Below, piece by piece: positions 26,314 to 54,592 of a DNA stretch of 64,000 bases. Source of the stretch: Mesorhizobium sp. Its GTDB lineage: Bacteria > Pseudomonadota > Alphaproteobacteria > Rhizobiales > Rhizobiaceae. The notes beneath the pieces were generated by a model. That model worked only from the letters and a program-made list of their open reading frames with translations, had not been told where the DNA came from and did no database searches. Positions within the stretch are counted from its first letter, which is position 1. Each line of letters starts with the position of its first letter. A program made the translations under genes and the position numbers. The DNA lies in contig NZ_JAEULZ010000039.1 in NCBI RefSeq assembly GCF_016793485.1, positions 42,363 through 106,362 on the forward strand, in the 5' to 3' direction.

Positions 26314-26317
26314 CATC

Positions 26318-26339: not shown

Positions 26340-26579
26340 GGATTTCCGCGCTTGTAAAGGGCTGGATACCCTTTGCGTAAGTCCTTGAATTGATAAGTCC
26401 TTTTTCTCTCTTCAAACGACCCAGCAGAGTTGACAACTGCCTTCGGAGCCCGAAAAGACGATATACGCCACAGTTTCTATTCGTACGCTAGACCACGCTA
26501 ACCCACTGTAGGCATTTATCTTTTCTGGCGATCCAATCCGAAGCCAGTATCCTGTGATGACCCCGAATTTCCGCCTGCG

Positions 26580-26601
26580 TGCTTCCGCGGTGCTTCCGCG
26601 G
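26580..26601 (+). repeat. Tandem 11-mer pair, right
   Basis: TGCTTCCGCGG occurs twice with no spacer, 42 bases before the integrase start. The second copy with the next four bases forms the palindrome GCTTCCGCGGAAGC. Binding here could also control int expression. Confidence 0.65.
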
Positions 26602-26643
26602 AAGCGGTCCAACGGAAGCGGCGCAGCCGCCGGAGTATGTCAC

Positions 26644-27987
26644 ATGGCGAAGCTAAGCAAACGTAGTGTCGATCAGGCCGAAGCCGGCGAGAAAGACTAT
26701 TTCATCTGGGACGACGAGCTGCCCGGCTTCGGGCTGCGCGTCTTCAAATCGGGGAAGCGCAGCTACCTGGTGCAGTATCGTGCCAAGGGTCGCACACGAC
26801 GCTTCACCATCGGCATGCACGGAGTCTGGACGCCGGACACTGCGCGCGTGCAGGCGCGCATCTTGCTCGGCCGCATCGCGCAAGGCGACAATCCGGCCGA
26901 AGAGCGCGAGCTCGACCATAAGGCCGTCACCATCAAGGAGCTGTGCGAGCGCTATCTCGAGGACGCGAAGAACGGATTGATCCTCGGCAAGAAGCGCCGC
27001 CCGAAAAAGGCGTCCACCATCTACACCGATGAGGGACGCATCCGGCGTCACATTATTCCGCTGCTCGGCACGCGGCGCGTGAAAGACATCACCGCCGCAG
27101 ACGTGACGCGCTTCATGCGCGACGTCGCATCCGGGAAGACCAAAGCCGATCAGAAGACCAAGAAGCGCGGCCGCTCGATCGTGCGTGGCGGCATCGGCAC
27201 GGGCACGCGCACGGTCGGCCTGCTCGGCGCCATCCTGACCTACGCCCGCGAGAGTGGGATCATCGACGCTAATCCGGCTCACGGCATCCGTAAGGCTGCC
27301 GACCAGAAGCGCACCCGGCGTCTCTCGGAGGACGAGTATCGCTTGCTAGGAAAGCTCCTCAAGAAGGCGTCTCAAGACGATCAGCTCGCAACCGCTGCGG
27401 AGATGGGGAAGGCCATCGCGCTCACGGGGTGCCGGCGTGGCGAGATCATCAATCTCATCTGGCCCGAAGTGGACAGCGATAATAGCTGCCTGCGGCTCAC
27501 CGACAGCAAGGAAGGTGCTTCAGTTCGACCGATCGGACTCCCGGTGGTCGACCTTCTCAATGCGCGCCGGCCGGAGCATGCAGCCGGCCCAGTCTTTGGC
27601 GGCACCATCGAAGGCAAGCCGCTGGTCGGGTTTCCGAAGCACTGGCACAAGATACTGGAGAACACACCGCTTGCCGGGATTACCCCGCACGTCCTGCGCC
27701 ACAGCTACGCCAGCATGGCGAACGATCTCGGCTTCACCGAATCGACAGTCGCGGCGTTGCTTGGGCACGCGCAAGGCACCGTCACCAGCCGCTACATTCA
27801 CACGGTTGATACGGCTTTGATCATGGCCGCAGATGCGGTCGCTGGTTATATCCAAGGCCTGCTCGATGGCGTGCAATTCAAGCGCAGCTCCTACGCACTC
27901 GATCGCGAGTCGCGCCAAGCAGCGATGAACCGCCTGTTCGCGCAAGCGATGCAGCCAGGAGAAGCTTTGGAGCAGTTGGCGGCGTAA
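26644..27987 (+). CDS. int: Tyrosine recombinase (P4-like ICE integrase)
   Basis: 447 residues. An N-terminal arm-binding domain (about 1-85) is followed by the SAM-like core-binding domain and the catalytic domain. Its tetrad is visible: Arg in TGCRRGEI, HVLRHSYAS (His and Arg), LLGHAQ (His) and the nucleophile Tyr in SRYIH. The ATG at 26644 has GGAG upstream; the open frame before it crosses the tandem repeats. It sits 330 bases from tRNA-Arg and heads the mobile element. It converges on hamB, whose stop is 43 bases away. It would integrate and, with RdfS, excise the ICE. Confidence 0.93.
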   Translation: MAKLSKRSVDQAEAGEKDYFIWDDELPGFGLRVFKSGKRSYLVQYRAKGRTRRFTIGMHGVWTPDTARVQARILLGRIAQGDNPAEERELDHKAVTIKELCERYLEDAKNGLILGKKRRPKKASTIYTDEGRIRRHIIPLLGTRRVKDITAADVTRFMRDVASGKTKADQKTKKRGRSIVRGGIGTGTRTVGLLGAILTYARESGIIDANPAHGIRKAADQKRTRRLSEDEYRLLGKLLKKASQDDQLATAAEMGKAIALTGCRRGEIINLIWPEVDSDNSCLRLTDSKEGASVRPIGLPVVDLLNARRPEHAAGPVFGGTIEGKPLVGFPKHWHKILENTPLAGITPHVLRHSYASMANDLGFTESTVAALLGHAQGTVTSRYIHTVDTALIMAADAVAGYIQGLLDGVQFKRSSYALDRESRQAAMNRLFAQAMQPGEALEQLAA

Positions 27988-31000: not shown

Positions 31001-31546
31001 ATCGGCATCCTCACCGGACAGCCCCGCAGCAATCCGGTCGTCACCATGCGCCGCGTCGTTCAGCCAACCGCGCACGAAGGCTCGAAGCCCATCAAGGTCG
31101 CGGAGCACCAGCCGCATCACCGCCATTTCGCCCGGCGTCAAATTCAGGTCGCCCACTGCCTCGTTGAAGAGCGAATAGGCGACGGCCGAGAACCCGGCCA
31201 GATGGTAGGCCGTGGCGGCGATCGTCCTGCGGAAACCGCGATCGGCGGCTTCGGGATCGGCATTCCGCACCAAAGCTTCAAACGCGTTGCCGGCGCGCTC
31301 GAACGCCTTGTTCGTCAACTCGGAGGAGCCGGCCTGGGTGCGAAGGGCCATTGCCGCACGGAGCAACGCAAACCCATGTTCTGCAAGGTCGGTATCGATG
31401 GTCGCGCCGAGCGGCGGGGCATTTTCAGGCAGAACGCCATCACTTCGCATTAGCGACCATGCCGCCCCTCGGTACAGCAGCCGCCCTTGCACGCCGTCCT
31501 GCGTCGCGCGCGTCAAAAATGCTTGCAGTTCGTCAGTCGTCTCCAA
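28031..31546 (-). CDS. hamB: HamB, Hachiman anti-phage helicase
   Basis: 1171 residues, a Ski2-like superfamily 2 helicase. An N-terminal helical region of about 300 residues is followed by motif I LPTSAGKT (about 314-321), motif II DEGH (about 416-419), motif III LSAIL and motif VI AGRAGR near 670. An acidic linker rich in Glu/Asp lies near 810-835, then a long C-terminal domain. Paired with HamA (DUF1837) it makes the two-gene Hachiman defence system, in which HamB senses damaged or phage DNA and HamA cuts DNA. Its start overlaps hamA by 14 bases, so translation is coupled. Confidence 0.85.
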   Translation of the reverse strand: METTDELQAFLTRATQDGVQGRLLYRGAAWSLMRSDGVLPENAPPLGATIDTDLAEHGFALLRAAMALRTQAGSSELTNKAFERAGNAFEALVRNADPEAADRGFRRTIAATAYHLAGFSAVAYSLFNEAVGDLNLTPGEMAVMRLVLRDLDGLRAFVRGWLNDAAHGDDRIAAGLSGEDADVDEILAIVLNTTICRALAFFDFALETGEEEPLDAARSLLTTAVSLADNAENVPLWWITNLCRHLIDDLWQHSLHQNLPTEPPEGAAEKYPDLRRLFIGSLYARKNSEVELWPSQREAARRSTDVKDDLVVALPTSAGKTRVAEIAALMTLSSARRVLIVTPLRALSAQTERSFRKTFAPLGFSVSSLYGASGLSAGDEDALRSREIIIATPEKLDFALRSDPSLIDDVGLIVLDEGHMIGPSEREIRYETLVQRLLRRADSADRRIVCLSAILPSGDELDDLTAWIRADEPGDAVRSDWRPTRQRFGMLAWRARDARLTLDLTNNGPFLDHFVVQKPPRGREKKPYPRKTSHLALFAAWEFAAQGKRTLIFSTQANWVEGYGKQIVDLCKRGYLDSLLDDEVSIARALEVGKEWLGEDHPAVASLKAGVAIHHGRLPSPFLRELEVLLSEGVLKVIVASPTLSQGLNLNAAVLLVPALYRAGKPITGEEFANVAGRAGRAFVDVEGLIVHVMFDRVDWRSGEWRGLVASSKARTLKSGLIQIVAEILDRLAREDVLGRADAWEYLANAREAWKSPAEEAAIAAQLAVPPDGTNPDDEDEDDEAGGDEEESIDEEPLSELVERLDATVFGLVEALDADRADLPKLLDEALKGSLWARQIAREGEGMEAQHRKVFEARANLIWSVTTPQARRGHFAMGVGLEAGLTIDAMAEELGALIDRADAASLPGDVDELADALAGLGERLLAMRPFIPDKKNALPGNWKAILKQWVSGAEVSQIGPHNMRMVEEAFTYRLVWALEAIRTRRLTLGWSPDIIPGGAAASLETGVPQFMMSMLIRAGLPSRRAAIAAIQTTNPVFVTPAEMRAWLESDEITAFTDAGDWPTPDTAALWARFRTEALSGGIQKWSIERYKRLLDIPAHSAPPAGLYRVITDEGDGRTWLATPDYRRVVPFKKPAVDPKPSLFSGRLPGATAVVDALRVGRGKLRWPRADA

Positions 31547-32315
31547 GGTCTTCCGCCTTCTGATACATCTCCTTGATGAAGTCCTGGTGGTCTTCGATGT
31601 GGACGTTCACGACATACTGGTCCCGGTTCGTCCCAGCACTTTCGAGATCGCCCTTCAGCGACGCGTGAGGTCCATTGCCCGATATCGTAAAGAGCATGTG
31701 GTCGATGCGATCGGCACGCAGGGCCTTGAGACCGATTTCATCGCGAAGGTCGCGGCCCAGTTGCACATCGCCGTCGTCGTTGCTTTCGAGCAAGCGGTTC
31801 GCGACAAATGCCAGCGAGTCCGGCGTGCATCTGCCATTGTCACGATTGAGCACCTTGCGGGCGCTCGTGACGGTGGCTTTTCCGAGGACTTTGTTGCTCT
31901 TGGCTTCGCCTTTCAGCAGCCAAAGCTTGGAGTCGTCGCCTCCATAGCCTGCCCCGATAAAGTCGTCGCCTCGCATCGCCATGTTGCGCCCATCCTTGTA
32001 GCGCAGACGGCGAACGGGAACGCGTAGACCGATTTCCTCCTCGACCAACTCGGTCGCCAATATCTCGCCGAGATCACCCGAGCGGCCTTTATCTGTCTGG
32101 GGGAGCTGCGTGCGCAGAATTTCCGCTGCAACCTTGTAGCCGAGCCGCTGGACGTCATCGGCTATACGCTCAAGCCGATCGTAATGGGAGCGCATGGTCT
32201 CGGCGAGGTCGTCACGAATCTCGTCGCGGCCACCGTCCTTTTCGACATACGTCCAATAGCGCTTTCGCTTGTCCTTTTCTTTCGTGGCTTCGCACCACTT
32301 CTTATACAGCCCCAC
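31533..32315 (-). CDS. hamA: HamA, Hachiman nuclease effector (DUF1837)
   Basis: About 260 residues. The DUF1837/HamA core is seen in GDLGEILATELVEEE, PVRRLRYKDGRNMAMRGDDFIG and LLKGEAKSN. The Asp pair and the ExK-type end resemble a PD-(D/E)XK nuclease centre. The GTG at 32315 was chosen because GGGGAG lies 6 bases upstream; the frame before it overlaps the AAA/DUF4143 gene. It overlaps hamB by 14 bases downstream and the upstream gene by 14 bases. In known Hachiman systems HamA degrades DNA when released by HamB. Confidence 0.85.
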   Translation of the reverse strand: MGLYKKWCEATKEKDKRKRYWTYVEKDGGRDEIRDDLAETMRSHYDRLERIADDVQRLGYKVAAEILRTQLPQTDKGRSGDLGEILATELVEEEIGLRVPVRRLRYKDGRNMAMRGDDFIGAGYGGDDSKLWLLKGEAKSNKVLGKATVTSARKVLNRDNGRCTPDSLAFVANRLLESNDDGDVQLGRDLRDEIGLKALRADRIDHMLFTISGNGPHASLKGDLESAGTNRDQYVVNVHIEDHQDFIKEMYQKAEDLGDD

Positions 32316-33573
32316 GCGGCGCTCCCCTGCCTGCCTTGTTCGCCGGCGCCTCTCCATCCCAAAGGCTCGACAGCGGCGCCGCCGCCAGCTTGTCGCCGAA
32401 CGGCACGAAGTCCGTGCTGTCGTAGAGGACGACGCCGAATGCAAAACGGTCCCCGCAAGCCTCGGCCAATGCCCGCAGGCCGGCGAAGTCGCCAGCCTTG
32501 ACCGTGGCGCTCGCCTTCACTTCGATACCTGCGATCGTCCCGTCGTCACGCTCCAGCACGATGTCCACCTCGCGCATGTCCCGATCCCGGAAATGATGCG
32601 GCGTCAACCGCAGGTCCGAAGCCGTCATGAGCTTCAGCACTTCCGAGAACACGAAGCTCTCCAGCAGCGCGCCGAACGTCCCACGATCCGCCTTCACCCG
32701 ATCAAATGTGAGCCCGCGCACACCCGCCAACAGGCCTGAATCGAGGAAATGGAGCTTGGGCGTCTTGACGATCCGCTTCAGTGCATTGGTGAACCAGGGC
32801 TGCACGGTCGCGATCAGGAACACCTGTTCGAGCAGCCCCACATAGCGCTGACTCGTCTTGTGATTGACGTTGATGCCGCTCCCGAACTGCGAATAGTTGA
32901 CCAGCTGGCCGGAGTGCTCGGCCAGCAGCCGCACGAATTTGGGAAGCTCGGTCAGCTTCTCCACCTCGGCGATGTCCCGCATGTCGCGGGTCAGGATCGA
33001 AGTGAGATAAGATCGCAGCCAGTCCTGCCGCCGCCGCTCGCTGTCGCGGCTGATCGCTTCGGGGAAGCCGCCGACCAGGACGAGTTTGACGAGATCGTCG
33101 CCGACGATCGCACTCCGCTGTCCCTGGAGCTTCCCTTCGAAGAGGCGTTCGAGAAAGGTCGGGGTCCGGTCTGCAATCTCGGCTCTCGCCAGCGGCAGCA
33201 TACGGATGGTCTCCATCCGGCCGGCCAAGCTGTCGGCGATCCGCGGCAAGGTCAGTACATTCGCCGAGCCGGTGAGTAGGAACCGACCCGGACGGTAATC
33301 CTCGTCGACCGTCTTCTTGATCGCGAGCAGCAGGTCGGGCACGCGCTGGATCTCGTCGATGATGGCCCGATCCAGGCCTCGGATGAAACCGGCGGGATCG
33401 GATTGGGCGGCTTCGAGGACGGTCTGATCATCGAGCGTGATATAAGTCCGACCGGCTTCTCCCATCTTTCGAACGAGCGTGGTCTTGCCCGCCCGTCGCG
33501 GCCCCACGATCAGGACCACCGGGGTATCCAAAAGGGCTTCTTCCGCCCGTCGCTCCACAAACCGCTCGAACAT
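32302..33573 (-). CDS. AAA_14 ATPase with DUF4143 domain, upstream of and coupled to hamA
   Basis: 423 residues. The N-terminal AAA_14 module has the P-loop GPRRAGKTT (about 24-32), the Walker B-like IIDEIQRVPDLL near 70-81 and LLTGSANV. The C-terminal half has the DUF4143 pattern, including EVDIVLERDDG and GIEVKASATV, a nuclease-like fold found in this family. Such ATPases are widespread and their function is unclear. The 3' end overlaps the hamA start by 14 bases, so the three genes read as one operon. It could be an extra component of this defence unit or an unrelated neighbour. Confidence 0.85.
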   Translation of the reverse strand: MFERFVERRAEEALLDTPVVLIVGPRRAGKTTLVRKMGEAGRTYITLDDQTVLEAAQSDPAGFIRGLDRAIIDEIQRVPDLLLAIKKTVDEDYRPGRFLLTGSANVLTLPRIADSLAGRMETIRMLPLARAEIADRTPTFLERLFEGKLQGQRSAIVGDDLVKLVLVGGFPEAISRDSERRRQDWLRSYLTSILTRDMRDIAEVEKLTELPKFVRLLAEHSGQLVNYSQFGSGINVNHKTSQRYVGLLEQVFLIATVQPWFTNALKRIVKTPKLHFLDSGLLAGVRGLTFDRVKADRGTFGALLESFVFSEVLKLMTASDLRLTPHHFRDRDMREVDIVLERDDGTIAGIEVKASATVKAGDFAGLRALAEACGDRFAFGVVLYDSTDFVPFGDKLAAAPLSSLWDGEAPANKAGRGAPRGAV

Positions 33574-41505: not shown

Positions 41506-44500
41506 ATGAACGATCTTTCTCCGATCGCGGCCGACCAGGCCGCGCCGCTGTCGCCGGTCCCTCATCCCGACGCCGCCGGCGCCATCATCGCTGCCGCCCA
41601 GCAACTCCTCCCTCATCTTGAGCGCGGCCAGCGGGTCGACGTCGCGATCCTGCGCGCGGCCATGGAAGCCGAATTCGGCGCCTCCGACGCCTCCGGCGCC
41701 TGGGACTGGAAGACGGCTTATGACGCTTGCGAGGCCGCGACCGTTCTTTTCCTGCGCAAATACGGAAAGGCGCTGTTCCGCAAAGCCGACTCTCCGGCTG
41801 CACGACTTTCCGCCCTGGTCAAGATCGCCGCGCTTCTTCCGACCCACACGCGCCGCTCCGCCGAGAGCGAGACCTTCCAGCAGTTCTCGACGCCGACCCC
41901 GCTAGGCCTCGCGGTCCTGATCGCGGCTGCCATCGGGCCGACGGACCGCGTGCTGGAGCCTTCGTCGGGAACCGGCCTCCTCGCCATCCTGGCCGAGATC
42001 GCCGGCGGTGCGCTTGTCCTGAACGAGTTGGCCGAGGCCCGGGCGACGCTGCTTTCCTCCCTCTTTCCGGGCGTGTCCGTCACACGCTTCGACGCAGCTC
42101 AGATCGACGATCACCTCGATACCGCCGTCGTCCCGAGCGTCGTCCTGATGAATCCGCCCTTCTCGGCGATGGCCAACGTCGCCGGCCGCATGGCCGACAC
42201 CGCCTATCGCCACATCGCCTCGGCCCTGGCCCGCCTCGCCGACGGCGGGCGGCTGGTGGCGATCACCGGCGCAAACTTCGGGCCCGACGCCCCGGCCTGG
42301 CGCGACGCCTTCGTCCATCTGCAGGAACGCGGCCGCATCGTCTTCACCGCCGCGATCGACGGCGCGGTCTATGCCAAGCACGGCACGACCATCGACACGC
42401 GGCTGATCGTCATCGACAAGACGCCCGCCGAGAACCCGGCCACCCTGCCGGAATCGCGGGGCATCGCGCCTGACGTGGCCACGCTGCTGAGCTGGATCGC
42501 CGAGCACGTTCCGGCGCGCCTGGCGCTCGCGCCGAGCCTCGCCATCGCCATGTCGGCCGCCGCCGCACCGCGGACGGTGCGGGGCTATCTCGCGCGTGCC
42601 GCTGCGGCGGGGCCGGTCAAGCCGTCCGTTGCCGATCCGGAGGCGATCGATCTCGCCTATGAGACGATCAACTGGACGTCGCCCGAAAGCGCGCTCCTCA
42701 GCGATGCGATCTATGAGGAATATCGGCTCCAATCGATCCAGATTCTCGGAGCCCAGGCGCACCCGACCAAGCTGGTGCAGTCCGCCGCCATGGCCTCGGT
42801 CGCGCCGCCGAAGCCGAGCTATCGGCCGCGGTTGCCGATCGACCTCGTCAGCGACGGCCTCCTCTCCGACGCCCAACTCGAGACGGTGATCTACGCCGGC
42901 GAGGCGCATGGCGACTATCTCGCCGGCGCCTGGACCGTGGATGAGACCTTCGATCTCGTCACCGCGTCCCGCGACGATGCGCCGAACGCCGTCCGCTTTC
43001 GCCGCGGCTTCATGCTGGGCGACGGCACCGGCGCCGGCAAGGGCCGTCAGTCGGCTGGCATCATTCTCGATAATTGGCTGAAGGGCCGGCGCAAGGCGGT
43101 CTGGATATCGAAGTCCGACAAGCTCCTGGAGGATGCCCAGCGCGACTGGTCGGCCCTCGGCATGGAGCGCCTGCTCATCACGCCGCTCTCGCGGTTCGCG
43201 CAGGGCAAACCGATCCGGCTGGCCGAAGGCGTCCTATTTTTAACCTACGCTACGCTGCGGTCCGACGACCGTGGCGAGAAGGTTTCGCGCGTCCGCCAGA
43301 TCGTTGAATGGTTGGGCTCCGACTTCGACGGAGTGATTATTTTCGACGAGAGCCACGCCATGCAGAACGCCGGTGGCGGCAAGGGCGAACGCGGCGACGT
43401 CGCCCCCTCGCAGCAGGGCCGCGCGGGCTTGCGCCTCCAGCACGCCCTGCCCAAGGCGCGCGTGGTCTATGTCTCGGCCACCGGCGCGACGACCGTCCAC
43501 AATCTCGCCTACGCCCAGCGGCTCGGCCTCTGGGGCGGCGAGGACTTCCCCTTCGCCACCCGCGCCGAATTCGTCGAGGCGATCGAGGATGGCGGTGTCG
43601 CCGCCATGGAGGTGTTGGCCCGCGACCTGCGTTCGCTCGGGCTCTACACCGCCCGCTCGCTTTCCTATGACGGCGTCGAGTATGAGCTGATCGAGCACCA
43701 GCTCACCGATGAACAGCGCCGCATATACGATTCCTATGCCGGGGCGTTCTCGATCATCCACAATCACCTCGACGCGGCGATGCAGGCCGCCAACATCACC
43801 GGCGAGAGCGGCACGCTGAACCGGCAGGCGAAGTCGGCGGCCCGCTCGGCCTTCGAGAGCGCCAAGCAGCGCTTCTTCGGCCATCTGCTAACCTCGATGA
43901 AGACGCCGACCTTGATCCGCCGGATTGAGCAAGACCTGGCCGACGGCCACGCCACCGTCATCCAGATCGTCTCGACCGGCGAAGCGCTGATGGAGCGCCG
44001 GCTCGCCGAGATTCCGACCGAGGATTGGAACGACGTCCGCGTCGACATCACGCCGCGCGAGTACGTTCTCGATTACCTCGCCCACTCCTTCCCGGTGCAA
44101 CTCTACGAGCCGTTCACCGACAGCGAGGGCAATCTCTCGTCCCGGCCCGTCTTTCGGGACGGCCAGCCTGTGCAAAGCCGCGAGGCCGTCGCCCGCCGCA
44201 ACGAGCTGATCGAGCGTTTGGCTTCGCTCCCGCCGGTGCCCGGTGCGCTTGACCAGATCGTCCAGCGCTTCGGCACCGACCTCGTCGCCGAAGTGACCGG
44301 ACGCTCGCGCCGCGTCGTGCGCAAAAGCGACCGCCTCGTCGTAGAGAACCGCGCCGCCTCCGCCAATCTCGCCGAGACCGCCGCCTTCATGGACGACCTG
44401 AAGCGCATCCTTGTGTTCTCGGAGGCGGGTGGCACTGGGCGCAGCTATCACGCCGAACTGTCAGCGCGGAACCGCCGGCTGCGTGTCCACTATCTGCTCG

Positions 44501-45840
44501 AACCCGGCTGGAAGGCCGACGCCGCGATCCAAGGCCTCGGGCGGACGAACCGCACCAACCAGGCCCAGCCACCGCTCTTCCGGCCGATCGCCACCGACGT
44601 GAAGGCGGAGAAACGCTTCCTCTCGACCATCGCTCGCCGCCTCGACACGCTGGGCGCGATCACGCGCGGCCAGCGCCAGACCGGCGGTCAGGGGCTGTTC
44701 CGGCCCGAGGACAACCTCGAATCCCACTACGCCCGCGACGCGCTGCGCCAGCTCTATCTGCTGCTCGTCCGCGGCAAGATCGAAGACTGCTCGCTCCAGA
44801 TGTTCGAGGACGCCACGGGCCTCAAGCTCATGGACGCGAACGGCATCAAGGACGAGTTGCCGCCGATCACGACCTTCCTCAACCGCCTGCTGGCGCTCAC
44901 CATCGATCTGCAAGGCGTGCTGTTCACCGCGTTCGAGCAGTTGCTGAACGCCAAGATCGAAGGCGCCATCGCCAGCGGCGTCTATGACCTCGGCCTGGAG
45001 ACGCTGCGGGCCGAGAGCTTCGTCGTCACTGATCGCCGCGCGATCTACACCCATCCCGCGACGGGCGCGGAGACCCGGCTGCTCACCATCACCGAACGCC
45101 GGCGCAATCGCCCGGTGACGCTCGATGAGGCGCTGGACCACCTCGCCGATCCCCGCGCCATGCTTCTCGTCAACGAGCGCTCGGGCCGCGCCGCCGTGCA
45201 GATCCCGGCGCCGAGCCTGATGCTCGATGATGGCGAGATCGAACGCCGCGTGCGGCTGATCCGGCCGATGGAGCACCATCACGCTTCGCTGAAGATGATG
45301 GACGAGAGCCACTGGCAGGCGGCAGAGCGGGAGGCCTTTGCGGCCGCCTGGACTCGTGAACTGGCCGAGGTCCCCGAGTTCGCCGACAGCACGATCCATA
45401 TCGTCGCCGGTTTGCTGCTGCCGATTTGGAAGCGCCTGCCGAACGAGTCGACGCGCGTGTATCGGCTTCAGACCGACGCGGGCGAGCGCATCATCGGCCG
45501 CAGAGTCTCGCCGGCCTGGGCGGCGAACGCGACCGTGACCGGAACCACCGCCCTGACACCGGATGCCGCCTTCGCAGCGCTGATGGAAGGCCGCACCGTT
45601 CTCGACCTCGCCGAGGGCCTGCAGCTCCACCGCGTGCGCGTGATGGGCGCTCACCGCATCGAGCTGTCGGGCTTCTCCGACACGATGCGCGACCGCCTGC
45701 GCGCCTACGGCCTCTTCGGCGAAATCATCTCGTGGAAGCTGCGCATGTTCGTGCCGACCGATCCCGCCGGCGCCGGAGTGCTGGCCAAAGTCCTCGACCA
45801 CTATCCGGTCGAGCGTATTGGCGAGCGGGAGGCGGCGTGA
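41506..45840 (+). CDS. Methyltransferase-strawberry notch helicase fusion (DarB-like)
   Basis: 1444 residues. The N-terminal third is a methyltransferase: motif I EPSSGTG (from residue 151) and motif IV NPPF (from residue 216), typical of N6-adenine enzymes. The remainder is a strawberry-notch superfamily 2 helicase, with Walker A GDGTGAGKGRQ (from 505), Walker B DESH (from 614), and GLGRTNRTNQ in the C-terminal helicase domain. The same pairing is known in phage P1 DarB, an anti-restriction protein. Its stop overlaps the toprim gene (TGATG). With ArdC it could protect the element on entry into a new host; this is inference. Confidence 0.88.
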   Translation: MNDLSPIAADQAAPLSPVPHPDAAGAIIAAAQQLLPHLERGQRVDVAILRAAMEAEFGASDASGAWDWKTAYDACEAATVLFLRKYGKALFRKADSPAARLSALVKIAALLPTHTRRSAESETFQQFSTPTPLGLAVLIAAAIGPTDRVLEPSSGTGLLAILAEIAGGALVLNELAEARATLLSSLFPGVSVTRFDAAQIDDHLDTAVVPSVVLMNPPFSAMANVAGRMADTAYRHIASALARLADGGRLVAITGANFGPDAPAWRDAFVHLQERGRIVFTAAIDGAVYAKHGTTIDTRLIVIDKTPAENPATLPESRGIAPDVATLLSWIAEHVPARLALAPSLAIAMSAAAAPRTVRGYLARAAAAGPVKPSVADPEAIDLAYETINWTSPESALLSDAIYEEYRLQSIQILGAQAHPTKLVQSAAMASVAPPKPSYRPRLPIDLVSDGLLSDAQLETVIYAGEAHGDYLAGAWTVDETFDLVTASRDDAPNAVRFRRGFMLGDGTGAGKGRQSAGIILDNWLKGRRKAVWISKSDKLLEDAQRDWSALGMERLLITPLSRFAQGKPIRLAEGVLFLTYATLRSDDRGEKVSRVRQIVEWLGSDFDGVIIFDESHAMQNAGGGKGERGDVAPSQQGRAGLRLQHALPKARVVYVSATGATTVHNLAYAQRLGLWGGEDFPFATRAEFVEAIEDGGVAAMEVLARDLRSLGLYTARSLSYDGVEYELIEHQLTDEQRRIYDSYAGAFSIIHNHLDAAMQAANITGESGTLNRQAKSAARSAFESAKQRFFGHLLTSMKTPTLIRRIEQDLADGHATVIQIVSTGEALMERRLAEIPTEDWNDVRVDITPREYVLDYLAHSFPVQLYEPFTDSEGNLSSRPVFRDGQPVQSREAVARRNELIERLASLPPVPGALDQIVQRFGTDLVAEVTGRSRRVVRKSDRLVVENRAASANLAETAAFMDDLKRILVFSEAGGTGRSYHAELSARNRRLRVHYLLEPGWKADAAIQGLGRTNRTNQAQPPLFRPIATDVKAEKRFLSTIARRLDTLGAITRGQRQTGGQGLFRPEDNLESHYARDALRQLYLLLVRGKIEDCSLQMFEDATGLKLMDANGIKDELPPITTFLNRLLALTIDLQGVLFTAFEQLLNAKIEGAIASGVYDLGLETLRAESFVVTDRRAIYTHPATGAETRLLTITERRRNRPVTLDEALDHLADPRAMLLVNERSGRAAVQIPAPSLMLDDGEIERRVRLIRPMEHHHASLKMMDESHWQAAEREAFAAAWTRELAEVPEFADSTIHIVAGLLLPIWKRLPNESTRVYRLQTDAGERIIGRRVSPAWAANATVTGTTALTPDAAFAALMEGRTVLDLAEGLQLHRVRVMGAHRIELSGFSDTMRDRLRAYGLFGEIISWKLRMFVPTDPAGAGVLAKVLDHYPVERIGEREAA

Positions 45841-46895
45841 TGGCCCGCCAAGACGCCTCCGAACTGGCACACCGTCTCGCGCGTGACGCCGAAGCGGTGT
45901 GCCGCCATTACCTCTCCGCCGGCCGCCGCGAAGGCGGCTACTGGCTCGTGGGCGACGTGCGCAATACTCCGGGCCGCTCGATGTTCGTCCGGCTCAAGGA
46001 GTCGCCGAAAGGGCCTGCCGGCAAATGGACCGACGCCGCCACGGGCGAACATGGCGACTTGCTCGATGTCATCCGCGAAAGCTGCGGCCTGATCGACTTC
46101 AAGGATGTCGCCGATGAGGCACGTTCGTTCCTCAGCCTGCCGCATCCTGAGCCCGAGCTTGATCGTGCCCGCTCGCGCAAGCCCAGCGCACCGGCAGGAT
46201 CGCCGGAGGCGGCGCGGCGACTCTTCGCGATGTCGCAGCCGATGGAACGCAGCCCCGTAGAGTCGTATTTGCGTCGTCGCGGCATTACGGCTTTGCACCG
46301 AACCGGAAGCCTGCGCTTCCATCCACGCTGCTACTATCGGCCCGACGACCACAGCCCGACCGAGACTTGGCCGGCGATGATCGCCGCCGTCACCGATCTC
46401 TCCGGCCATCTGACCGGCGCGCATCGCACCTGGCTCGATCCCGGCGGCTTCAGCGAGACGACGCTCGGCAAGGCGCCGATCGACACGCCGAGACGGGCGA
46501 TGGGTGACCTTCTCGGTCACGCCGTTCGATTTGGCGTGGCGGGCGAGGTCATGGCGGCCGGCGAGGGCATCGAGACGATGCTCTCGCTCCGATGCGTCTT
46601 GCCGACCATGCCGATGGTCGCAGCCCTCTCGGCGGCGCATCTCTCCGCCATCCTGTTCCCGGACACGCTGCGGCGACTCTACATCGCCCGCGACGATGAT
46701 CCGGCCGGTAACGGCGCGATGGCGACGTTGATCGACCGGGCGCAGGAGGCCGGGATCGAGGCGATCGTGATCTCGCCACGGCTCGGCGACTTCAACGAGG
46801 ATCTCCGCCTGCTCGGCATCGACGCGCTTCGAGCAGCCAGCCGGGTGCAGATCGCTGCGCAGGACGTCGCCCGCTTCATGGAGCTGGCGGCGTAG
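45840..46895 (+). CDS. Toprim-domain primase-like protein (DUF7146)
   Basis: 351 residues. An N-terminal zinc-finger-less primase-like part has GRREGGYWLVGDVRNTPGRSMFVRL and GKWTDAATGEHGDLLDVI. The toprim domain follows with AGEGIETMLSL (about 235-245) and the acidic YIARDDDPAG. It resembles phage and ICE toprim proteins that prime or repair DNA. It overlaps the helicase gene by two bases, so the pair probably acts together during transfer or in replication of the incoming strand. Confidence 0.85.
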   Translation: MARQDASELAHRLARDAEAVCRHYLSAGRREGGYWLVGDVRNTPGRSMFVRLKESPKGPAGKWTDAATGEHGDLLDVIRESCGLIDFKDVADEARSFLSLPHPEPELDRARSRKPSAPAGSPEAARRLFAMSQPMERSPVESYLRRRGITALHRTGSLRFHPRCYYRPDDHSPTETWPAMIAAVTDLSGHLTGAHRTWLDPGGFSETTLGKAPIDTPRRAMGDLLGHAVRFGVAGEVMAAGEGIETMLSLRCVLPTMPMVAALSAAHLSAILFPDTLRRLYIARDDDPAGNGAMATLIDRAQEAGIEAIVISPRLGDFNEDLRLLGIDALRAASRVQIAAQDVARFMELAA

Positions 46896-49060: not shown

Positions 49061-49504
49061 ATGATCTTCATTGGTATCATCGCCAGCATCGCCGCGATCG
49101 GCGTTCTCTGCTGCTTGATGTTCTATCTCGCGGTCTATGCGCTGCCCTTGTTCGCTGGCGTCACAGTTGGCGCATGGGCTTACGGCACAGGCGCGGGATG
49201 GCTCGGAGCTATTGCCGTTGGATTTGTCGCGGGCTTGGTCACACTCGGCGTGGGCCAACTCCTGCTCGTGTTCGTGAAACCGCTCTGGCTGAGGCTCGCG
49301 ATCGCCATCGCCTTCGTCGCGCCGGCCGCAATCGCCGGCTATCACGCCACCCACGGCATCGTGAAACACACTATGCCGTCCGAGACGTGGCCGATCATCT
49401 TCTCTGTGATCGGCGCCATCGCAGTCGGCGTCACCGCATTCGTTCGCGTGACGACGTTGGCTGGGACCGCGCCTACGGGACAAGGCGGCATGGCGCGCGC
49501 TTAA
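49061..49504 (+). CDS. Hypothetical membrane protein with about five helices
   Basis: 147 residues, mostly hydrophobic helices: FIGIIASIAAIGVLCCLMFYL, FAGVTVGAWAYG, IAVGFVAGLVTLGVGQLLL, AIAIAFVAPAAIAGY and IIFSVIGAIAVGVTAF. No family is recognised. GGGAG lies before the ATG, and a terminator upstream gives it its own transcript. Such proteins on ICEs may act in surface or entry exclusion, but nothing here proves it. Confidence 0.6.
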   Translation: MIFIGIIASIAAIGVLCCLMFYLAVYALPLFAGVTVGAWAYGTGAGWLGAIAVGFVAGLVTLGVGQLLLVFVKPLWLRLAIAIAFVAPAAIAGYHATHGIVKHTMPSETWPIIFSVIGAIAVGVTAFVRVTTLAGTAPTGQGGMARA

Positions 49505-50087
49505 GCGGGCTGCACGGCAGGGGCGGCCGAGCAAGGCTTGCATACGCCGTCCTAGTCGTTTGTTGGCGAGACGATGCCATAGAGCGCCTCTCGACTAGAC
49601 GTGAGCAGCCCACATCGAAGCCCGCCGGGAACACAAGCCAATCGGCGAAGCTGCTCCTCAACTCCACAATGGTGGATCCCTGAGACGTCTTTCGTCTACG
49701 CGGCCGGGCGACGATCCCACTTTCGTCCGCCGGACGCCGATACGGAATGTTGCGCTAAACGTGCCGGTCCATTGGGGAAGGCGACGGGTCGAGCCACGTT
49801 CTCCTCGATACACCTCTGTCTGATCGAGCACTCCAAGCGGCCTCTTCGATGGGCTGATCTGGCCGAAGGCCGGCTGCGCCTCGACCGCCTATGCCGCAAT
49901 GGCGCCGATCGACTTTCTTCCCCTGCCGGCTTCGCCGGCATTCCTCGCGAAACAACAAAGTCGCCTGGCTGCCATCCTCCGCTGCGCTTCGGCCTGCAAG
50001 CAGGTGCGGCGCCGATCGCCTCCGGCCAACCGATCGCCATCGAGGCCGCATGGTGCGGGCTCGAAACAGAGATCAAGGAGAACTACC
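49505..50087. other. 583-base region without a supported gene
   Basis: It contains an inverted repeat CTAGTCG/CGACTAG (49552-49558 and 49592-49598) and a strong hairpin TGCCGGC-TTC-GCCGGCA (49924-49940). An ATG at 49899 is in frame with the DUF736 gene but would add a Pro/Arg/Ser-rich tail unlike that family. Long leaders of this kind may hold promoters, an origin of transfer or a small RNA; none was identified. Confidence 0.4.
49924..49940. repeat. Hairpin in the DUF736 leader
   Basis: TGCCGGC-TTC-GCCGGCA, a perfect 7-bp stem with a three-base loop and no T run. Possible RNA structure in the leader of the DUF736 gene. Confidence 0.4.
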
Positions 50088-50411
50088 ATGGCGACCATCG
50101 GCACCTTCAAGAAGACCGGCAACGAGTTCAGCGGCCAAATCGTCACCCTCAGTGTCCAGGCGAAGAACGTCCGCATCGTTCCCGAGGCCAACCGCTCCGG
50201 CGAGAACGCCCCCAGCCACCGCGTCTTCGTGGGCCGCGTCGAGATCGGCGCCGCCTGGGCCAAGCGCTCCAACGAGGGCCGCGATTATCTGGGCCTCAAG
50301 CTCGACGACCCGAGCTTTACCGCCCCGATCTACGCCAACCTCTTCGACGACGAGGACGGCGAGGGCTACAGCCTGATTTGGTCTCGTCCCAACGGCCGCC
50401 GCGCCGACTAA
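50088..50411 (+). CDS. DUF736 protein, copy 1
   Basis: 107 residues. The DUF736 pattern is clear: MATIGTFKKTGNEFSGQIVTLSVQAKNVRIVP, GAAWAKRSNEGRDYLGLKLDDPSF, ANLFDDEDGEGYSLIWSRP. This short beta-rich family is abundant on rhizobial plasmids and ICEs; function unknown. GGAG lies 8 bases before the ATG. A second family member is at 54638. It lies just before the qseC switch. Confidence 0.88.
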   Translation: MATIGTFKKTGNEFSGQIVTLSVQAKNVRIVPEANRSGENAPSHRVFVGRVEIGAAWAKRSNEGRDYLGLKLDDPSFTAPIYANLFDDEDGEGYSLIWSRPNGRRAD

Positions 50412-50632
50412 CCGCCAGCGACGCCCCGCCCGATCCTCGGGCGGGGCAGTCCTTCAAGGCCCCGCCAAGGCACGCACGCGAAACCACCTCGAGGCTGGCC
50501 CGAACGGGCTGGCCTTCCGGCTTTGCACCTTGTCGCTTTTCCGGATCGCCGGTTGGCCAACCCTACGCGTTTCCGCAGGTCCGGTTGGTCGGATCGGGAC
50601 GCGAGCTGAATTGTAACGCGACTCGCGTAGAG

Positions 50633-50860
50633 TCATGTTTCAGTGACTTCCACCGTCTCATCGAGGAGGTCGGCGGGTTTCACGTTCAACGCTTCCGCCA
50701 AATGCCACATCGTCAACAGCGTGACATTTTGCTGGCCCCGCTCCATGCCGCTCACATAGGCGCGGTCCACACCCATTTTCACGGCGACCGCTTCCTGGCT
50801 CAGACCGGCAGCGACGCGATACCTCCTGACGTTGGCTCCAAAGATTCTGCGAATGTCCAT
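50633..50860 (-). CDS. qseC: QseC-like XRE-family repressor
   Basis: 75 residues, one HTH_XRE domain: IFGANVRRYRVAAGLSQEAVAVKMGVDRAYVSGMERGQQN. It is transcribed divergently from a qseM-like DUF2285 gene. In ICEMlSymR7A the same arrangement holds QseC, a repressor that controls its own gene and qseM. An inverted repeat between the two genes (50881-50911) could be its operator. A TTG at 50878 lies about 7 bases after the leftward -10 box, so a leaderless message is possible. The assignment rests on arrangement and size. Confidence 0.75.
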   Translation of the reverse strand: MDIRRIFGANVRRYRVAAGLSQEAVAVKMGVDRAYVSGMERGQQNVTLLTMWHLAEALNVKPADLLDETVEVTET

Positions 50861-50880
50861 CCGCAGGATAGGAGACAATA

Positions 50881-50911
50881 GTGCATTATATCGCTACGTG
50901 TTATAATACAC
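50881..50911. promoter_or_regulatory. Probable QseC operator with overlapping divergent -10 boxes
   Basis: GTGCATTATA and TATAATACAC are 10-bp inverted arms (one mismatch) around an 11-base centre. Each arm holds a TATAAT hexamer pointing outward: leftward for qseC (ATTATA on plus, 50885-50890), rightward for qseM (50902-50907). The two promoters overlap, so their use may exclude each other. Confidence 0.65.
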
Positions 50912-51034
50912 GGCCGCGTCGGCTGAGCGTGATGCCGCCAGCGGGCTGCCGTGATGCGTGAAAAGCATCGGGAAATTTCACTTGTCGGTCTGGTGTGCCT
51001 TGGCGGAGCCGATACGATCAATTAACCAAGACAG

Positions 51035-51310
51035 ATGGACGCGCCGATGATCACGATGGACTTCCTGGATCGTCCGCCCGAGAGCAACCGTCTCACGGCT
51101 TACGATGAAAGCCATCTCGCCGCCTACATCCGGTTGCTGGACGCCGACGCGGAAGGGGCCGATTGGCGTGAGGCGGTGCAAATCATCTTCGGATTCGACC
51201 CCGACGATGACCCCGACCGCGCTCGCGTTATTCATCAAAGCCATCTCGCCCGCGCCCGCTGGATGACCACGACGGGCTATCGCGAGCTCCTCCGTCCCCG
51301 CGTGTCCTAG
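51035..51310 (+). CDS. qseM: QseM-like antiactivator (DUF2285)
   Basis: 91 residues from 51035, with other ATGs at 51047 and 51056. The core LTAYDESHLAAYIRLLDADAEGADWREAVQIIFGFDP, then SHLARARWMTTTGYRELL, follows the short DUF2285 form of QseM. In ICEMlSymR7A, QseM binds and blocks both TraR and the activator FseA. The gene is divergent from the XRE repressor and 126 bases before fseA, so the whole control switch lies together. No strong ribosome site is seen. Confidence 0.75.
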   Translation: MDAPMITMDFLDRPPESNRLTAYDESHLAAYIRLLDADAEGADWREAVQIIFGFDPDDDPDRARVIHQSHLARARWMTTTGYRELLRPRVS

Positions 51311-51436
51311 AGCGGGACACTCCTCCCGGTTGTGCAAGGCATCGCGCCCCGCAGTTTTGGGGACTTCCGCCGAGCCTCGTCGGCGGCGAGGCTTAACGCG
51401 CAGGGGGCCACTCAGAGCGCGGACGAGGAGACGCGT

Positions 51437-52217
51437 ATGGCCGAGCCGCCGGATTGGCGATTGCAGACAACCGAACGCGCGCTGAACCGCTTGGAACGGC
51501 AAGGGTTCGCGTGGGAGTTTCTGCGCCGCAATCCCGACTATCGCAGCGACTATGACCGCCTGCGCGGCACCCCGGCCAGCCGCGAGAGCGCTTCATTGCC
51601 GCATAGGAGCGCCACCCCGCAATGGGGGTTGCGCTTTCCTGCTCGATCCCGACCGCTCCGCTAGCGAGACCGCGATCTTCTGGCGGCCAGAGCTTGTCGC
51701 CAGCGTCTTGCTGATTGAACCAGCGCCGGCCGTCTTTCTCGCCGCCAAGCGACTCGACCAGCTCGACCTAACTCACGCCACACTGCACGCGCAACCCGGA
51801 GGCGAAGGTGCGATCATTTTAGCCGATCCCGACGGCGATCATCATTTGGTCGTCGGCGCCATCGACCCGGCTCAACCGCTCGCCGTTCTGCTGCCGCTCG
51901 ACGACAACTTCCACATCCGCGCCGAAGCGGCATTGCGATTCCAACGCCGCCTATTTGGACGCGCCCCCGGTCCGCTACCGCGCGCGCTCACGCTCACACC
52001 GCGCCGCCGCCTGCGGCTGGTGCGCATGGTGCGTGCGCTCGATGGCCGATCCGCAGGCGCGACTTATCGCGAAATCGCCGGCGTGCTTTTCGACACGCCG
52101 CGGCAGTCCGCCACCGAATGGAAAACGTCGTCCATCCGCGCCCAGACAATCCGTTTGGTCAAGGATGCCGAGACGATGGTGCGCGGCGGCTATCTCCGCT
52201 TGCTGGCCGGCCGCTGA
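51437..52217 (+). CDS. fseA: FseA-like excision activator made by +1 ribosomal frameshift (DUF6499-DUF2285)
   Basis: Frame one runs 51437-51664 (MAEPPDWRLQ..., DUF6499-like, with GAGGAG upstream). Frame two ends at 52217 with DUF2285 (RLVRMVRALDGRSAGATYREIAGVLF, TIRLVKDAETMVRGGYLRLL). At 51635 frame one reads QWGLR-F with TTT followed by C. A +1 slip from TTT to TTC (51636-51638) leads into LLDPDRSASETAIFW. The fusion has about 259 residues. This is the arrangement known for msi172-msi171 of ICEMlSymR7A, where tRNA-Phe slips from UUU to UUC. FseA turns on rdfS; an rdfS-like gene follows here. Confidence 0.8.
51635..51638 (+). promoter_or_regulatory. Programmed +1 frameshift site of fseA
   Basis: TTTC after codons for GLR: frame one reads TTT (51635-51637), the shifted frame TTC (51636-51638) and then CTG. 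Without the slip, translation stops at 51664. Site, protein motif and direction match the frameshift described for ICEMlSymR7A fseA. Confidence 0.75.
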
Positions 52218-52370
52218 CTCCCTGCGGTCCCCATCGAACGAGGGGCACAAGGGGGGTACGCGCACAGAGGGGTCTCACTCCGTCATCCACCCTGACGCCG
52301 GTGGTTCGCCATCGTGGTCGCCGCTTCGCCACTGCACGCCGGCGGGGCAGCCGATCCACCGGAGGCCCCA

Positions 52371-52661
52371 ATGTCAGCAGCGCGACTCGACCCCCCGCCA
52401 CGCTATCTCCGCACATCCGAGGCGGCGCGCTTCCTCGGCCTATCCGGTCGCACGCTGGAGAAGCACCGCACCTACGGCACGGGACCGGTCTATCGCAAGC
52501 TCGGCGGACGCATTGTCTATGCCCTCGACGATCTTCAGGCTTGGGCGGATCGCGGCACACGGCAGTCGACATCAGATCCGGGCCACGGTGTTGTCCACCC
52601 TGCAAAACGACAGGCGACGCCCGCCGGGGGAATGCCCGTGCGACGCGGCGGCGCGTCATGA
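52371..52661 (+). CDS. rdfS: RdfS-like excisionase (AlpA/MerR-type helix-turn-helix)
   Basis: 96 residues. YLRTSEAARFLGLSGRTLEKHRTYGTGPVYRKLGGRIVYALDDLQAWAD is a single HTH_17-type domain as in recombination directionality factors. The C-terminal 30 residues are disordered. GGAGG lies 7 bases before the ATG, and the stop overlaps parA by ATGA. In ICEMlSymR7A, RdfS drives excision with the integrase and its gene is the FseA target. Its position just after fseA and before parA and traF supports this role. Confidence 0.82.
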   Translation: MSAARLDPPPRYLRTSEAARFLGLSGRTLEKHRTYGTGPVYRKLGGRIVYALDDLQAWADRGTRQSTSDPGHGVVHPAKRQATPAGGMPVRRGGAS

Positions 52662-53296
52662 TCGTCGCGCTCCTCAATCAGAAGGGTGGCGTCGGCAAGA
52701 CGACGCTCACGCTGCATGTCGCCGGCGAATGGGCGAGCAAGGGAAGGCGCGTCCTACTCATTGACGCGGACCCACAGGGCTCCGCGCTCGATTGGTCCCA
52801 GCAGCGGGCACGCGAAGGCCTGCCGCGACTCTTCGGTGTCATCGGCCTGGCGCGGGATACGCTTCACAGCGAAGCGCCGGAGCTGGCGCGAGACGCCGAT
52901 CATGTGGTGATCGACGGGCCACCGCGCGTCGCCAGCCTGATGCGGTCCGCGCTGCTTGCCGCCGACCTGGTACTGATCCCCGTGCAGCCATCGCCTTTCG
53001 ATGGCTGGGCGTCCGCGGAGATGCTCTCGCTGCTGGGCGAGGCGCGGATCTACCGCCCCCAGCTCGCCGCCCGCTTCGTGCTGAATCGCTGCGGAGCGCG
53101 AACCGTCATCGCGCGCGAGACGGCCGAGACGCTCGCCGATCACGATCCGCCGGTACTCACCAGCACCGTCGGCCAGCGCGTCACCTTCGCCGACGCGGCA
53201 CGCTCCGGCCGCCTGGTCTCCGAGATCAACGAACGCAGCCCCGCTGCGCGCGAGATCACCGCACTCTGCACTGAGGTCGGGAGGATCGCACCATGA
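52658..53296 (+). CDS. parA: ParA-family ATPase
   Basis: 212 residues, with the deviant Walker A KGGVGKTT near residues 9-16, DADPQGSALDW, and DHVVIDGPP as the Walker B region. Small ParA proteins move DNA or protein complexes; on ICEs they may help to position or maintain the excised circle or the relaxosome. It overlaps rdfS and the next gene by four bases each, so it is part of a tight transfer operon. Confidence 0.93.
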   Translation: MIVALLNQKGGVGKTTLTLHVAGEWASKGRRVLLIDADPQGSALDWSQQRAREGLPRLFGVIGLARDTLHSEAPELARDADHVVIDGPPRVASLMRSALLAADLVLIPVQPSPFDGWASAEMLSLLGEARIYRPQLAARFVLNRCGARTVIARETAETLADHDPPVLTSTVGQRVTFADAARSGRLVSEINERSPAAREITALCTEVGRIAP

Positions 53297-53547
53297 CGGA
53301 GCGGCCCCACAAACGCGCCTTCACTGCACGTCCAGCCGATCCAGAGAGCTGGGTGAAAGCCCCCAATCCGCGGCACCCGCGCGGCGGCGACACCGCCACC
53401 TTCACCGCGCGCCTCACCATCGACGTCACGCCCGACATGCGTGGCCAGATCAAGATCGCCGCGTTTCAGCGTGGGGTCACCGTCGCCGACATGCTGCGCG
53501 AGCTACTCGCCCGCGAGTTTCCCCCAACCGATGGAGCAACGCCATGA
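53293..53547 (+). CDS. Small ribbon-helix-helix-like protein after ParA
   Basis: 84 residues. A disordered start (about 1-35) is followed by TARLTIDVTPDMRGQIKIAAFQRGVTVADMLRELLAREF, the strand-helix-helix of a ribbon-helix-helix DNA-binding domain. It may be the partner of ParA (a ParG-like centromere protein) or a repressor of the operon. It overlaps both neighbours by ATGA. Confidence 0.7.
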   Translation: MTERPHKRAFTARPADPESWVKAPNPRHPRGGDTATFTARLTIDVTPDMRGQIKIAAFQRGVTVADMLRELLAREFPPTDGATP

Positions 53548-54050
53548 ACGGCGCAGCCGACTTGCGTCGCGCCGCGACGCCGAACGTCGCCGGCCTGACC
53601 CATGTCGAGCTGACCTGGATCGAGAAAAGGATCGAATATTGGATCCGGTTCGGACAGGAGGTCCACGAACAGATTCTCGACCGCCGCCGGCGCGTCGTCA
53701 GCTTCCCGCCCCACAGCGTTTTCGCGCTTGTCCGCTGGGCGTCCAACGACTTCGGAACGGTCCTCTCGCGCATCGACATCGTGCGCGCGGTTTCGCCGGG
53801 CGAACCCTATCAGACGTTGCCCTTCGTGCGCCCCGGCGGCGACATTCTGCTGAAGGCCGAGAGCTGGCGACACGTCGAGCGCGTCCTGCAGATCGTCGAC
53901 GCGATCGAGTCCAGCGGCATCAATCCCGCCGAGGTCTCGCCGCACCATTGGCGCCACGTTCATAACCGGCTCGTCGCCGGCCAGGAACCGCGCAACTACA
54001 CCGCGCAGCAGCACCGGGCCATCCTCTTGCGCCGAAGGGTCGAGCCATGA
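53544..54050 (+). CDS. DUF2840 protein
   Basis: 168 residues. LTHVELTWIEKRIEYWIRFG, VVSFPPHSVFALVRWASNDFGTVLSRIDI and the GINPAEVSPHHWRHVHNRL segment are typical of DUF2840, found only between parA and traF on rhizobial-type ICEs and plasmids. No function is known. It overlaps both neighbours by four bases, which implies a role tied to conjugation. Confidence 0.85.
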   Translation: MNGAADLRRAATPNVAGLTHVELTWIEKRIEYWIRFGQEVHEQILDRRRRVVSFPPHSVFALVRWASNDFGTVLSRIDIVRAVSPGEPYQTLPFVRPGGDILLKAESWRHVERVLQIVDAIESSGINPAEVSPHHWRHVHNRLVAGQEPRNYTAQQHRAILLRRRVEP

Positions 54051-54592
54051 CCCGCTTCGGCTACGTCATCACGACGTACTTCACCGTGATGCTGATCGGT
54101 GGCCTGTCCTTCATCCACATCACGCCCCGGCTGATCTGGAACGCGTCCGCCAGCACGCCGATCGGACTCTATTCGCTCGACCGGTCGCCACGCCTTCAAG
54201 TGACTGACCTCGTCGCCGTGGACGCCCCTGAGCCGCTCGCATCGTTCCTCGCCGAGCGTGGCTACGTGCCGCGCGGCGTCCCCCTCATGAAACGCGTCGC
54301 CGCCCTTCCCGGCCAGCAGGTCTGCCGCACCGGCGCACACGTCACCGTCGATGGCGTCGCGATGGGTGAAGCGCTGACGCGCGACCGTCTCGGCCGCCAT
54401 CTGCCCGTCTGGCAGGGCTGCCGGCGCATCGCCGACGGCGAGATCTTCCTCATGAACTGGTCCGTCGAGGACAGCCTCGACGGGCGCTACTTCGGTCCGA
54501 TTTCCACCCGCTCGATCATCGGCCGCGCAACGCCTGTGTGGACCGATGAAGACGGCGGCGGCCGCTTCCAATGGCGCGCCGCGACGCGGTGA
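54047..54592 (+). CDS. traF: TraF-like S26 signal peptidase for pilin
   Basis: 181 residues. An N-terminal membrane helix (about 8-27) is followed by the catalytic Ser in NASASTPIGLY (near residue 36) and the Lys of MKRVAALPG (near 82), then NWSVEDSLDGRYFGPI. TraF matures and cyclises TrbC pilin in the periplasm. TrbC is present at 61.3 kb. The gene is coupled to DUF2840 by a 4-base overlap. Confidence 0.92.
   Translation: MTRFGYVITTYFTVMLIGGLSFIHITPRLIWNASASTPIGLYSLDRSPRLQVTDLVAVDAPEPLASFLAERGYVPRGVPLMKRVAALPGQQVCRTGAHVTVDGVAMGEALTRDRLGRHLPVWQGCRRIADGEIFLMNWSVEDSLDGRYFGPISTRSIIGRATPVWTDEDGGGRFQWRAATR

Follow-up and report, generated by a model that had tools for sequence, protein, structure and literature searches.

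A homologue of fseA in Mesorhizobium sp., probably joined by a +1 slip at UUU-C: base-level anatomy of a conserved frameshift site

Introduction

Among described systems, the fseA gene (msi172-msi171) of ICEMlSymR7A in Mesorhizobium japonicum stands nearest to the locus presented here. FseA is reported to be made by +1 programmed frameshifting, and about 61% of 4709 homologues are reported to have the +1 site (PMC10359603). In R7A, as in the gene described below, DUF6499 is encoded in frame 0 and DUF2285 in frame +1 (PMC10359603, PMC5882170), and the UUU shift site lies just behind a Trp-Gly pair (PMC10359603, PMC5882170, PMC5009743). The control of rdfS and the partnership with QseM are likewise held in common, in our case by homology (PMC10359603, PMC5882170). 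The Trp-Gly-Leu codons are described as forming a ribosome-binding-site-like UGGGGG that may stall translation (PMC10359603), while in another account conservation of the Gly codon is limited to its first two bases, and an action of the Trp-Gly peptide is reported as a suggestion (PMC5009743).

The release factor 2 gene, prfB, offers a second comparison: like fseA, it has a pyrimidine-rich slip site preceded by a Shine-Dalgarno-like GGGGG (PMC12421855). The G run ends 3 nt before the slip codon in prfB and 6 nt before it in fseA (PMC12421855), and the slip codon is Leu in the former and Phe in the latter. Unlike prfB, the fseA gene described here has no stop codon at its slip site, so autoregulation by a release factor is not expected. 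At the level of the protein family, the joined FseA also resembles RovC of Yersinia (PDB 6xz5; phmmer, E 7.4e-8), which is reported to activate a type VI secretion system (PMC10359603).

This report focuses on a stretch of 64,000 nucleotides of a Mesorhizobium sp. contig, hereafter the window, in which two overlapping frames had been predicted to form a single fseA-like gene read through a ribosomal frameshift. The gene is a new copy of an already published mechanism; what is added is the anatomy of the site, base by base, across its homologues.

Loci, Counts and Tree

Gene structure, register, slip-site conservation, codon bias and gene context were all taken from the present analysis. Loci came from two sources, a scan of public genomes with peptide patterns of the joined protein that exclude the junction, and searches with PF20109, which miss homologues with no recognisable DUF6499. 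The latter covered 385 genomes of the class, 297 of the order and 398 of the phylum, in overlapping samples, with matches in 25, 61 and 43 genomes, respectively. At most 30 loci were taken per PF20109 search, and 77 further stretches were added, two of them from the window's own genome. The resulting 198 sequences gave 183 with the domain pair, the 15 others being left uncounted, and 167 distinct loci once copies that resemble each other in the first 150 bases of the domain match were removed. Domain matches were made with stops masked, and counts among the 167 loci take copies irrespective of their intactness.

For codon background, the DUF2285 and DUF6499 parts of the same genes were counted separately. 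Fisher p-values were computed regardless of relatedness, and counts weighted by cluster agree with them. The tree was built from the 152 rows with Trp-Gly, of which 139 were long enough and 123, including 14 single-frame rows, remained after removal of near-copies; it comes from a quick search under a simple model and carries a warning of long branches that meet.

Structure of fseA in the Window

The following features make up the gene:

51425..51430, + strand: likely ribosome-binding site GAGGAG of fseA, with the same letters in 11 of 12 aligned loci
51437..51664, + strand: fseA frame 0 (msi172-like), with DUF6499 and the AWEFLRRN motif; 75 amino acids without a shift
51623..51629, + strand: TGGGGGT, putative internal Shine-Dalgarno-like element for pairing with 16S rRNA; start of the Trp-Gly-Leu codons
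51632..51634, + strand: Arg codon preceding the slip codon, CGC here and CGA in 62 of the 80 +1 loci with Arg
51635..51638, + strand: predicted slip site UUU-C; UUU-C/U in 132 of 133 +1 loci
51639..52217, + strand: fseA +1 frame (msi171-like), with the DUF2285 DNA-binding domain

Frame 0 runs for 75 codons from the ATG at 51437 to the stop at 51662-51664 and matches PF20109 (DUF6499) in a profile search with E 2.5e-19. In the +1 register, an open reading frame that begins with an ATG at 51552 extends to 52217 and matches PF10074 (DUF2285; Pfam name RovC_DNA-bd) with E 2e-37. The two domains are continuous at UUU-C, where joining yields a product of 259 residues, and the conserved +1 site, UUU-C behind TGGGG, is present. 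The two halves had thus been rightly assigned to overlapping frames of one gene, and the coordinates, the run of five Gs at 51624-51628 and the TTTC at 51635-51638 were exact. The A-site codon at the slip site is CCU and not a stop, and eight codons separate the slip site from the frame-0 stop (median 17 in 124 +1 loci). The expectation that annotation would split the gene in two was borne out in the three public records viewed (3/3). Taken together at the level of sequence, the two frames are probably one gene, a homologue of fseA and a probable starter of mobile-element transfer.

Frame Register and Slip Site across Homologues

The peptide-pattern scan returned 33 loci, in 31 of which both halves were recovered by tblastn, all 31 in the +1 register; in the remaining two (L028, L029) the frame-0 half gave no tblastn match, yet the same junction DNA is present. 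Both domains are present in 167 distinct loci, of which 133 are in the +1 register, 33 in a single frame and one in another arrangement (L100); relatives with as little as about 30% identity retain the +1 register. Single-frame homologues had been named beforehand as the case that would speak against a frameshift; they do exist (33/167), but the nine rows of the starred clade that holds the window are all +1.

UUU followed by C or U stands at the junction of 132 of the 133 +1 loci. The TTT occupies the expected codon in 122 and the next codon in two (L058, L157), and in nine +1 loci with no Trp-Gly in the search range a targeted look, which is weaker evidence, located TTT-C/T in eight. At the expected codon, the base after UUU is C in 116 loci and T in six, never A or G (0/122), as re-pairing of tRNA-Phe to UUC requires; the predicted slip of tRNA-Phe from UUU to UUC is supported by these counts. 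None of these 122 loci has a stop codon next to the slip TTT. As a side observation, L157 (G473:C3), with one extra codon between Trp-Gly and the slip codon, reads TTT-TGA as in prfB, and in L083, L103 and L144 UGA comes three codons after the slip codon. The sole +1 locus without UUU-C/U, L047 (G361:C1 near 1503061), has TGT-C at the junction and TGG-AGG in place of TGG-GGG, and is perhaps a decayed copy and a natural example of loss of the shift. The window's own genome holds two further fseA loci, L196 (G000:C21:388000-396000) and L197 (G000:C43:31000-39000), both +1, with the junction TGGGGGTTR-CGA-TTTC.

Alignment of the junction upheld the conservation of TTTC and not that of GLRF as an invariant motif: what is kept is Trp-Gly in the protein and TGGGG-N7-TTT-C/T in the DNA, while the residue before Phe varies (R, S, L, H, C and others) and Leu may be replaced by Val. 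A search of 295 genomes of the order found the motif TGGGGGTTRCGATTTC 30 times, in 26 genomes; 29 of these occurrences have a DUF6499 frame directly upstream, the lone unrelated match being L228, and the reversed control has no occurrence in the same 295 genomes. As the motif was derived from loci including many of these genomes, the figures test specificity and not prediction. In viral contigs the motif has 11 matches, none at an fseA gene.

Codon Bias at the Junction

Each of the codons leading to the slip site departs from the background of the same genes. In +1 loci, Trp is followed by GGG as the Gly codon in 90 of 124, against 188/1591 in the DUF2285 part and 60/275 in the DUF6499 part; the next Leu is TTA or TTG in 79/113 (background 366/2968 and 99/615, respectively); the Arg before UUU is CGA in 62/80 (246/2705 and 140/1009); and Phe is TTT in 122/122 at the site versus 150 of 634 Phe codons in the DUF2285 part. 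Weighting by clusters at 60% identity agrees, with 47.0/65 for GGG and 31.3/37 for CGA. Single-frame loci have GGG in 4/28 and CGA in 0/12, both at background, and TTA/TTG is raised in them too (12/26 vs 108/512, p 0.006).

Shared ancestry alone does not account for the CGA bias: 77 of the 124 +1 loci have a WEFLRRN-like motif, and at each of its two Arg positions only 5/77 codons are CGA (the first position includes at least one Lys). Nor is the bias a mere preference for A, as only three of the 44 non-Arg codons before UUU (44/124 +1 loci) end in A. The window copy has CGC, like several close relatives, whereas others of its clade have CGA. GGG is found in 6/17 +1 loci of a deeper branch versus 84/107 of the remaining ones.

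On the 123-row tree the frame state changes at least eight times, five of the changes being forced by starred branches. Comparison of GGG with frame state over supported branches leaves only five independent pairs (on average 1.0 in agreement, 0.2 opposite and 3.8 unchanged), and that of CGA only two. At the level of sequence, the biased codons suggest selection within the main lineage; a link between this bias and the frame state is phylogenetically unproven.

The qseC-qseM-fseA-rdfS Cassette and its Control Sites

The fseA gene lies in a cassette with the following features:

50633..50878, − strand: qseC-like XRE/HTH_3 gene, predicted repressor; PF01381 E 4.6e-15; start TTG at 50878, with an ATG six codons in
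50881..50911, no strand: candidate QseC operator, inverted repeat GTGCATTATA / TATAATACAC, 11 nt apart
51035..51310, + strand: qseM-like putative antiactivator, a lone DUF2285 without DUF6499; PF10074 E 3.3e-8
52254..52288, no strand: candidate FseA box before rdfS, GGGTACG-N20-CGTCATCC, imperfect inverted repeat
52371..52661, + strand: rdfS-like excisionase gene (HTH_17); PF12728 E 2.2e-8; after fseA in the window clade

As predicted, qseC, qseM, fseA and rdfS lie within about 2 kb (50633-52661). The window fseA is located 3′ of qseM, on the same strand, and before rdfS, whereas fseA of R7A is described behind traI2 (PMC5882170). The window QseM matches PDB 7uqt (“Quorum sensing master protein”) with E 5.9e-21. 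The qseC-like gene is kept divergent to qseM in the window clade, and the inverted repeat between them, the candidate QseC operator, is largely conserved in 12 aligned loci. The candidate FseA box is also largely conserved in 12 loci. FseA boxes are known as two inverted hexamers 15-16 bp apart; the window's repeat before rdfS is imperfect, and some relatives have clearer repeats at a similar place. Counted by spacing in 120 loci, inverted repeats before rdfS exceed shuffled sequences at many spacings, no single one being prominent. A sigma-70 promoter scan of 50600-52700, of little information value, found none.

Within the window clade (L009-L018), QseM has 73-88% identity to the window protein and FseA 67-94%, while RdfS, ParA and QseC have 87-99%. 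From these sequences, the antiactivator QseM and its target FseA may co-diverge.

The Element around the Cassette

Apart from the window, 14 loci of its clade were examined, and 10 of them (L008-L016, L018) have the full order DUF736, qseC (divergent), qseM, fseA, rdfS, parA, DUF2840, S26 peptidase and DUF736; L007, L048 and L067 end within the order at the edge of their stretch and L017 lacks the first DUF736. These 14 loci are not all independent, as L007 and L008 are 100% identical to the window proteins and L048 looks like a different part of the locus of L014. L196, L197 and the plasmids L202 and L203 have a replication initiator gene between rdfS and parA; at this place none was found in the window, nor in those clade loci whose sequence extends to parA.

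Farther to the right lie genes for an SLT transglycosylase, a DUF3363 relaxase, a TraG-like coupling protein, a T2SSE ATPase, which we name TrbB-like, and a TrbC pilin. The genes expected of an element like ICEMlSymR7A (integrase, relaxase, coupling protein, Trb genes, rdfS) are present, and the contig ends with the window. The cassette is probably part of a conjugative element. The notion of a compact version of the full excision switch holds for qseC-qseM-fseA-rdfS and not for an AHL synthase, as no PF00765 match was found on this contig.

No ends of the element were found. A tRNA-Arg (CCG) adjoins a tyrosine integrase gene at window positions 26238-27987. The left end is unsure, because the integrase is on the 5′-end side of the tRNA and no attachment repeat was found: barring an internal palindrome, no stretch of 14 bases or more from 26100-26800 recurs elsewhere in the window or within the 19.4 kb on its left side. 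Near the integrase (28034-32444), a HamA gene (PF08878) stands beside a DEAD-box helicase gene, a pair that we take to look like Hachiman anti-phage defence. At 41506-46895, a gene for a Strawberry-notch-like helicase of 1444 residues (AAA_34, Helicase_C_4) is followed by a DUF7146 + Toprim_3 gene.

A near relative of the window fseA is found in Sphingosinicella (86% over 250 columns), whereas in 40 relatives of the host its DNA has no match beyond patches of 36-37 bases in two; this distribution fits a mobile element. One of these 40 genomes (G944) has a more distant fseA (L104). A megablast search of a plasmid collection gave no match to the window fseA DNA.

Proposed Mechanism and Alternatives

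In the preferred reading, to which a probability of about 0.92 is given, the two frames form a single fseA gene, joined at UUU-C by a +1 slip of tRNA-Phe from UUU to UUC, whose product activates excision of the element. Activity, low efficiency and regulation of the window FseA are carried over from R7A; on this model, most ribosomes would end at the 75-residue DUF6499 product. A minority would be paused by pairing of GGGGGU with the 3′ end of the 16S rRNA at the moment when the preceding Arg codon is occupied by a tRNA; this pairing and the role of the Arg codon are our own proposal. In the paused ribosome, tRNA-Phe would move from UUU to UUC, one base would be skipped and the DUF2285 frame would be read. 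The fused FseA, of about 259 residues, would bind the box before rdfS and turn excision on, while QseM, encoded just upstream, would block FseA by binding DUF6499, and QseC would control qseM.

That the split is a sequencing or assembly error or a decayed gene, with one surplus base most likely in the G run, might be suggested by frames lying one base apart beside a homopolymer. The same site nevertheless recurs in 132 of 133 +1 loci; two further copies in the same genome are +1 with TTTC; 34 of 124 +1 loci have just four Gs and hold the register, so that a shorter G run, named in the original prediction as a refuting outcome, fails as an explanation; and removal of one G from the window would give Trp-Gly-Cys-Ala-Phe, unlike the Trp-Gly-Leu-x of most single-frame homologues (Leu in 26/28). 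As a general account this reading is refuted by the comparative sequence data, and for the window it is close to negligible. Transcriptional slippage on the G run, for which the five Gs of the window might be invoked, meets the same loci with four Gs as well as the conservation of UUU-C/U downstream, and is hardly credible. Two separate proteins, the second initiated inside the first at the ATG at 51552 that opens the second frame or via the internal Shine-Dalgarno element, would agree with the two genes annotated in the public records. This is very improbable: a second-frame start codon lies within 22 nt after the Gly codon in just 8/124 +1 loci, the second frame opens less than 30 nt before Trp, or later, in 32/124, and the conservation of UUU-C/U and of the +1 register would have no reason.

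Two further alternatives accept the shift and differ from the preferred slip in how it would come about. In a Ty3-like event, no slip would take place on UUU. While CGA, or a different weak codon, occupies the P site, the tRNA-Phe entering the ribosome would pair out of frame with UUC, and one U would be left unread. The prevalence of CGA among Arg codons before UUU favours it, as do the Shine-Dalgarno-like element 3 nt before the Arg codon, which equals the spacing of prfB to its slip codon (PMC12421855), and the report of CGA among the few codons able to replace GCG in Ty3 (PMC5009743). Such an event predicts a free first base of the 0-frame codon, yet TTT is found in 122 of the 124 +1 loci with Trp-Gly and one codon later in the other two; moreover, a non-Arg codon precedes TTT in 44/124, with A as last base in only three, and the window itself has CGC. 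The Ty3-like event is therefore unlikely. A nascent Trp-Gly peptide as the stimulator in place of RNA, the suggestion reported in PMC5009743, agrees with the presence of Trp-Gly in 124 of 133 +1 loci, but the pair is also present in 28 of 33 single-frame loci that need no shift, where Gly is GGG in only 4/28, and this origin of the stimulus seems rather improbable. Since Trp-Gly is kept in single-frame loci and the third G is not, the stimulating signal, as read from the sequences, looks like RNA and not like the nascent peptide.

For the slip of tRNA-Phe itself, a more specific model, on which the odds appear even, is that the main alphaproteobacterial fseA signal would be a three-part RNA, GGGGGUUR-CGA-UUU-Y, in which an internal Shine-Dalgarno element and a chosen CGA would loosen the hold of the ribosome and let tRNA-Phe slip +1 without a stop, with swaps of CGA to CGC tuning the frequency of transfer. 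In these hosts CGA is presumably read by inosine, with a weak I:A pair; if the model is true, fseA would be a bacterial +1 shift with an inosine-read codon as conserved stimulator. Work cited in PMC6321510 found more +1 shifting at the prfB site when the E-site codon is less stable, an effect that would fit CGA in fseA by analogy, while the E-site changes made in PMC6321510 itself are reported to show that stability is not the main cause of the +1/-1 switch. In the literature searched, no mention of a CGA preference in fseA was found; it may stand in Ramsay et al. 2015. As to a downstream RNA structure as stimulator, six of six folds, all from the window clade, were ordinary (z -0.93 to 1.44), and Rfam gave no match in 49500-54500.

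Significance

By homology, fseA, a gene that annotation divides in two, would switch on the movement of a large DNA element from one bacterium to another. The “conserved +1 site” is now resolved base by base, which bears on the choice between the peptide and the RNA explanations and favours the latter. The short motif TGGGGGTTRCGATTTC can serve to spot fseA genes of the frameshifting type in raw genomes (29 of 30 occurrences, in a sample that is partly its source), and the codon before the slip site gains a testable role.
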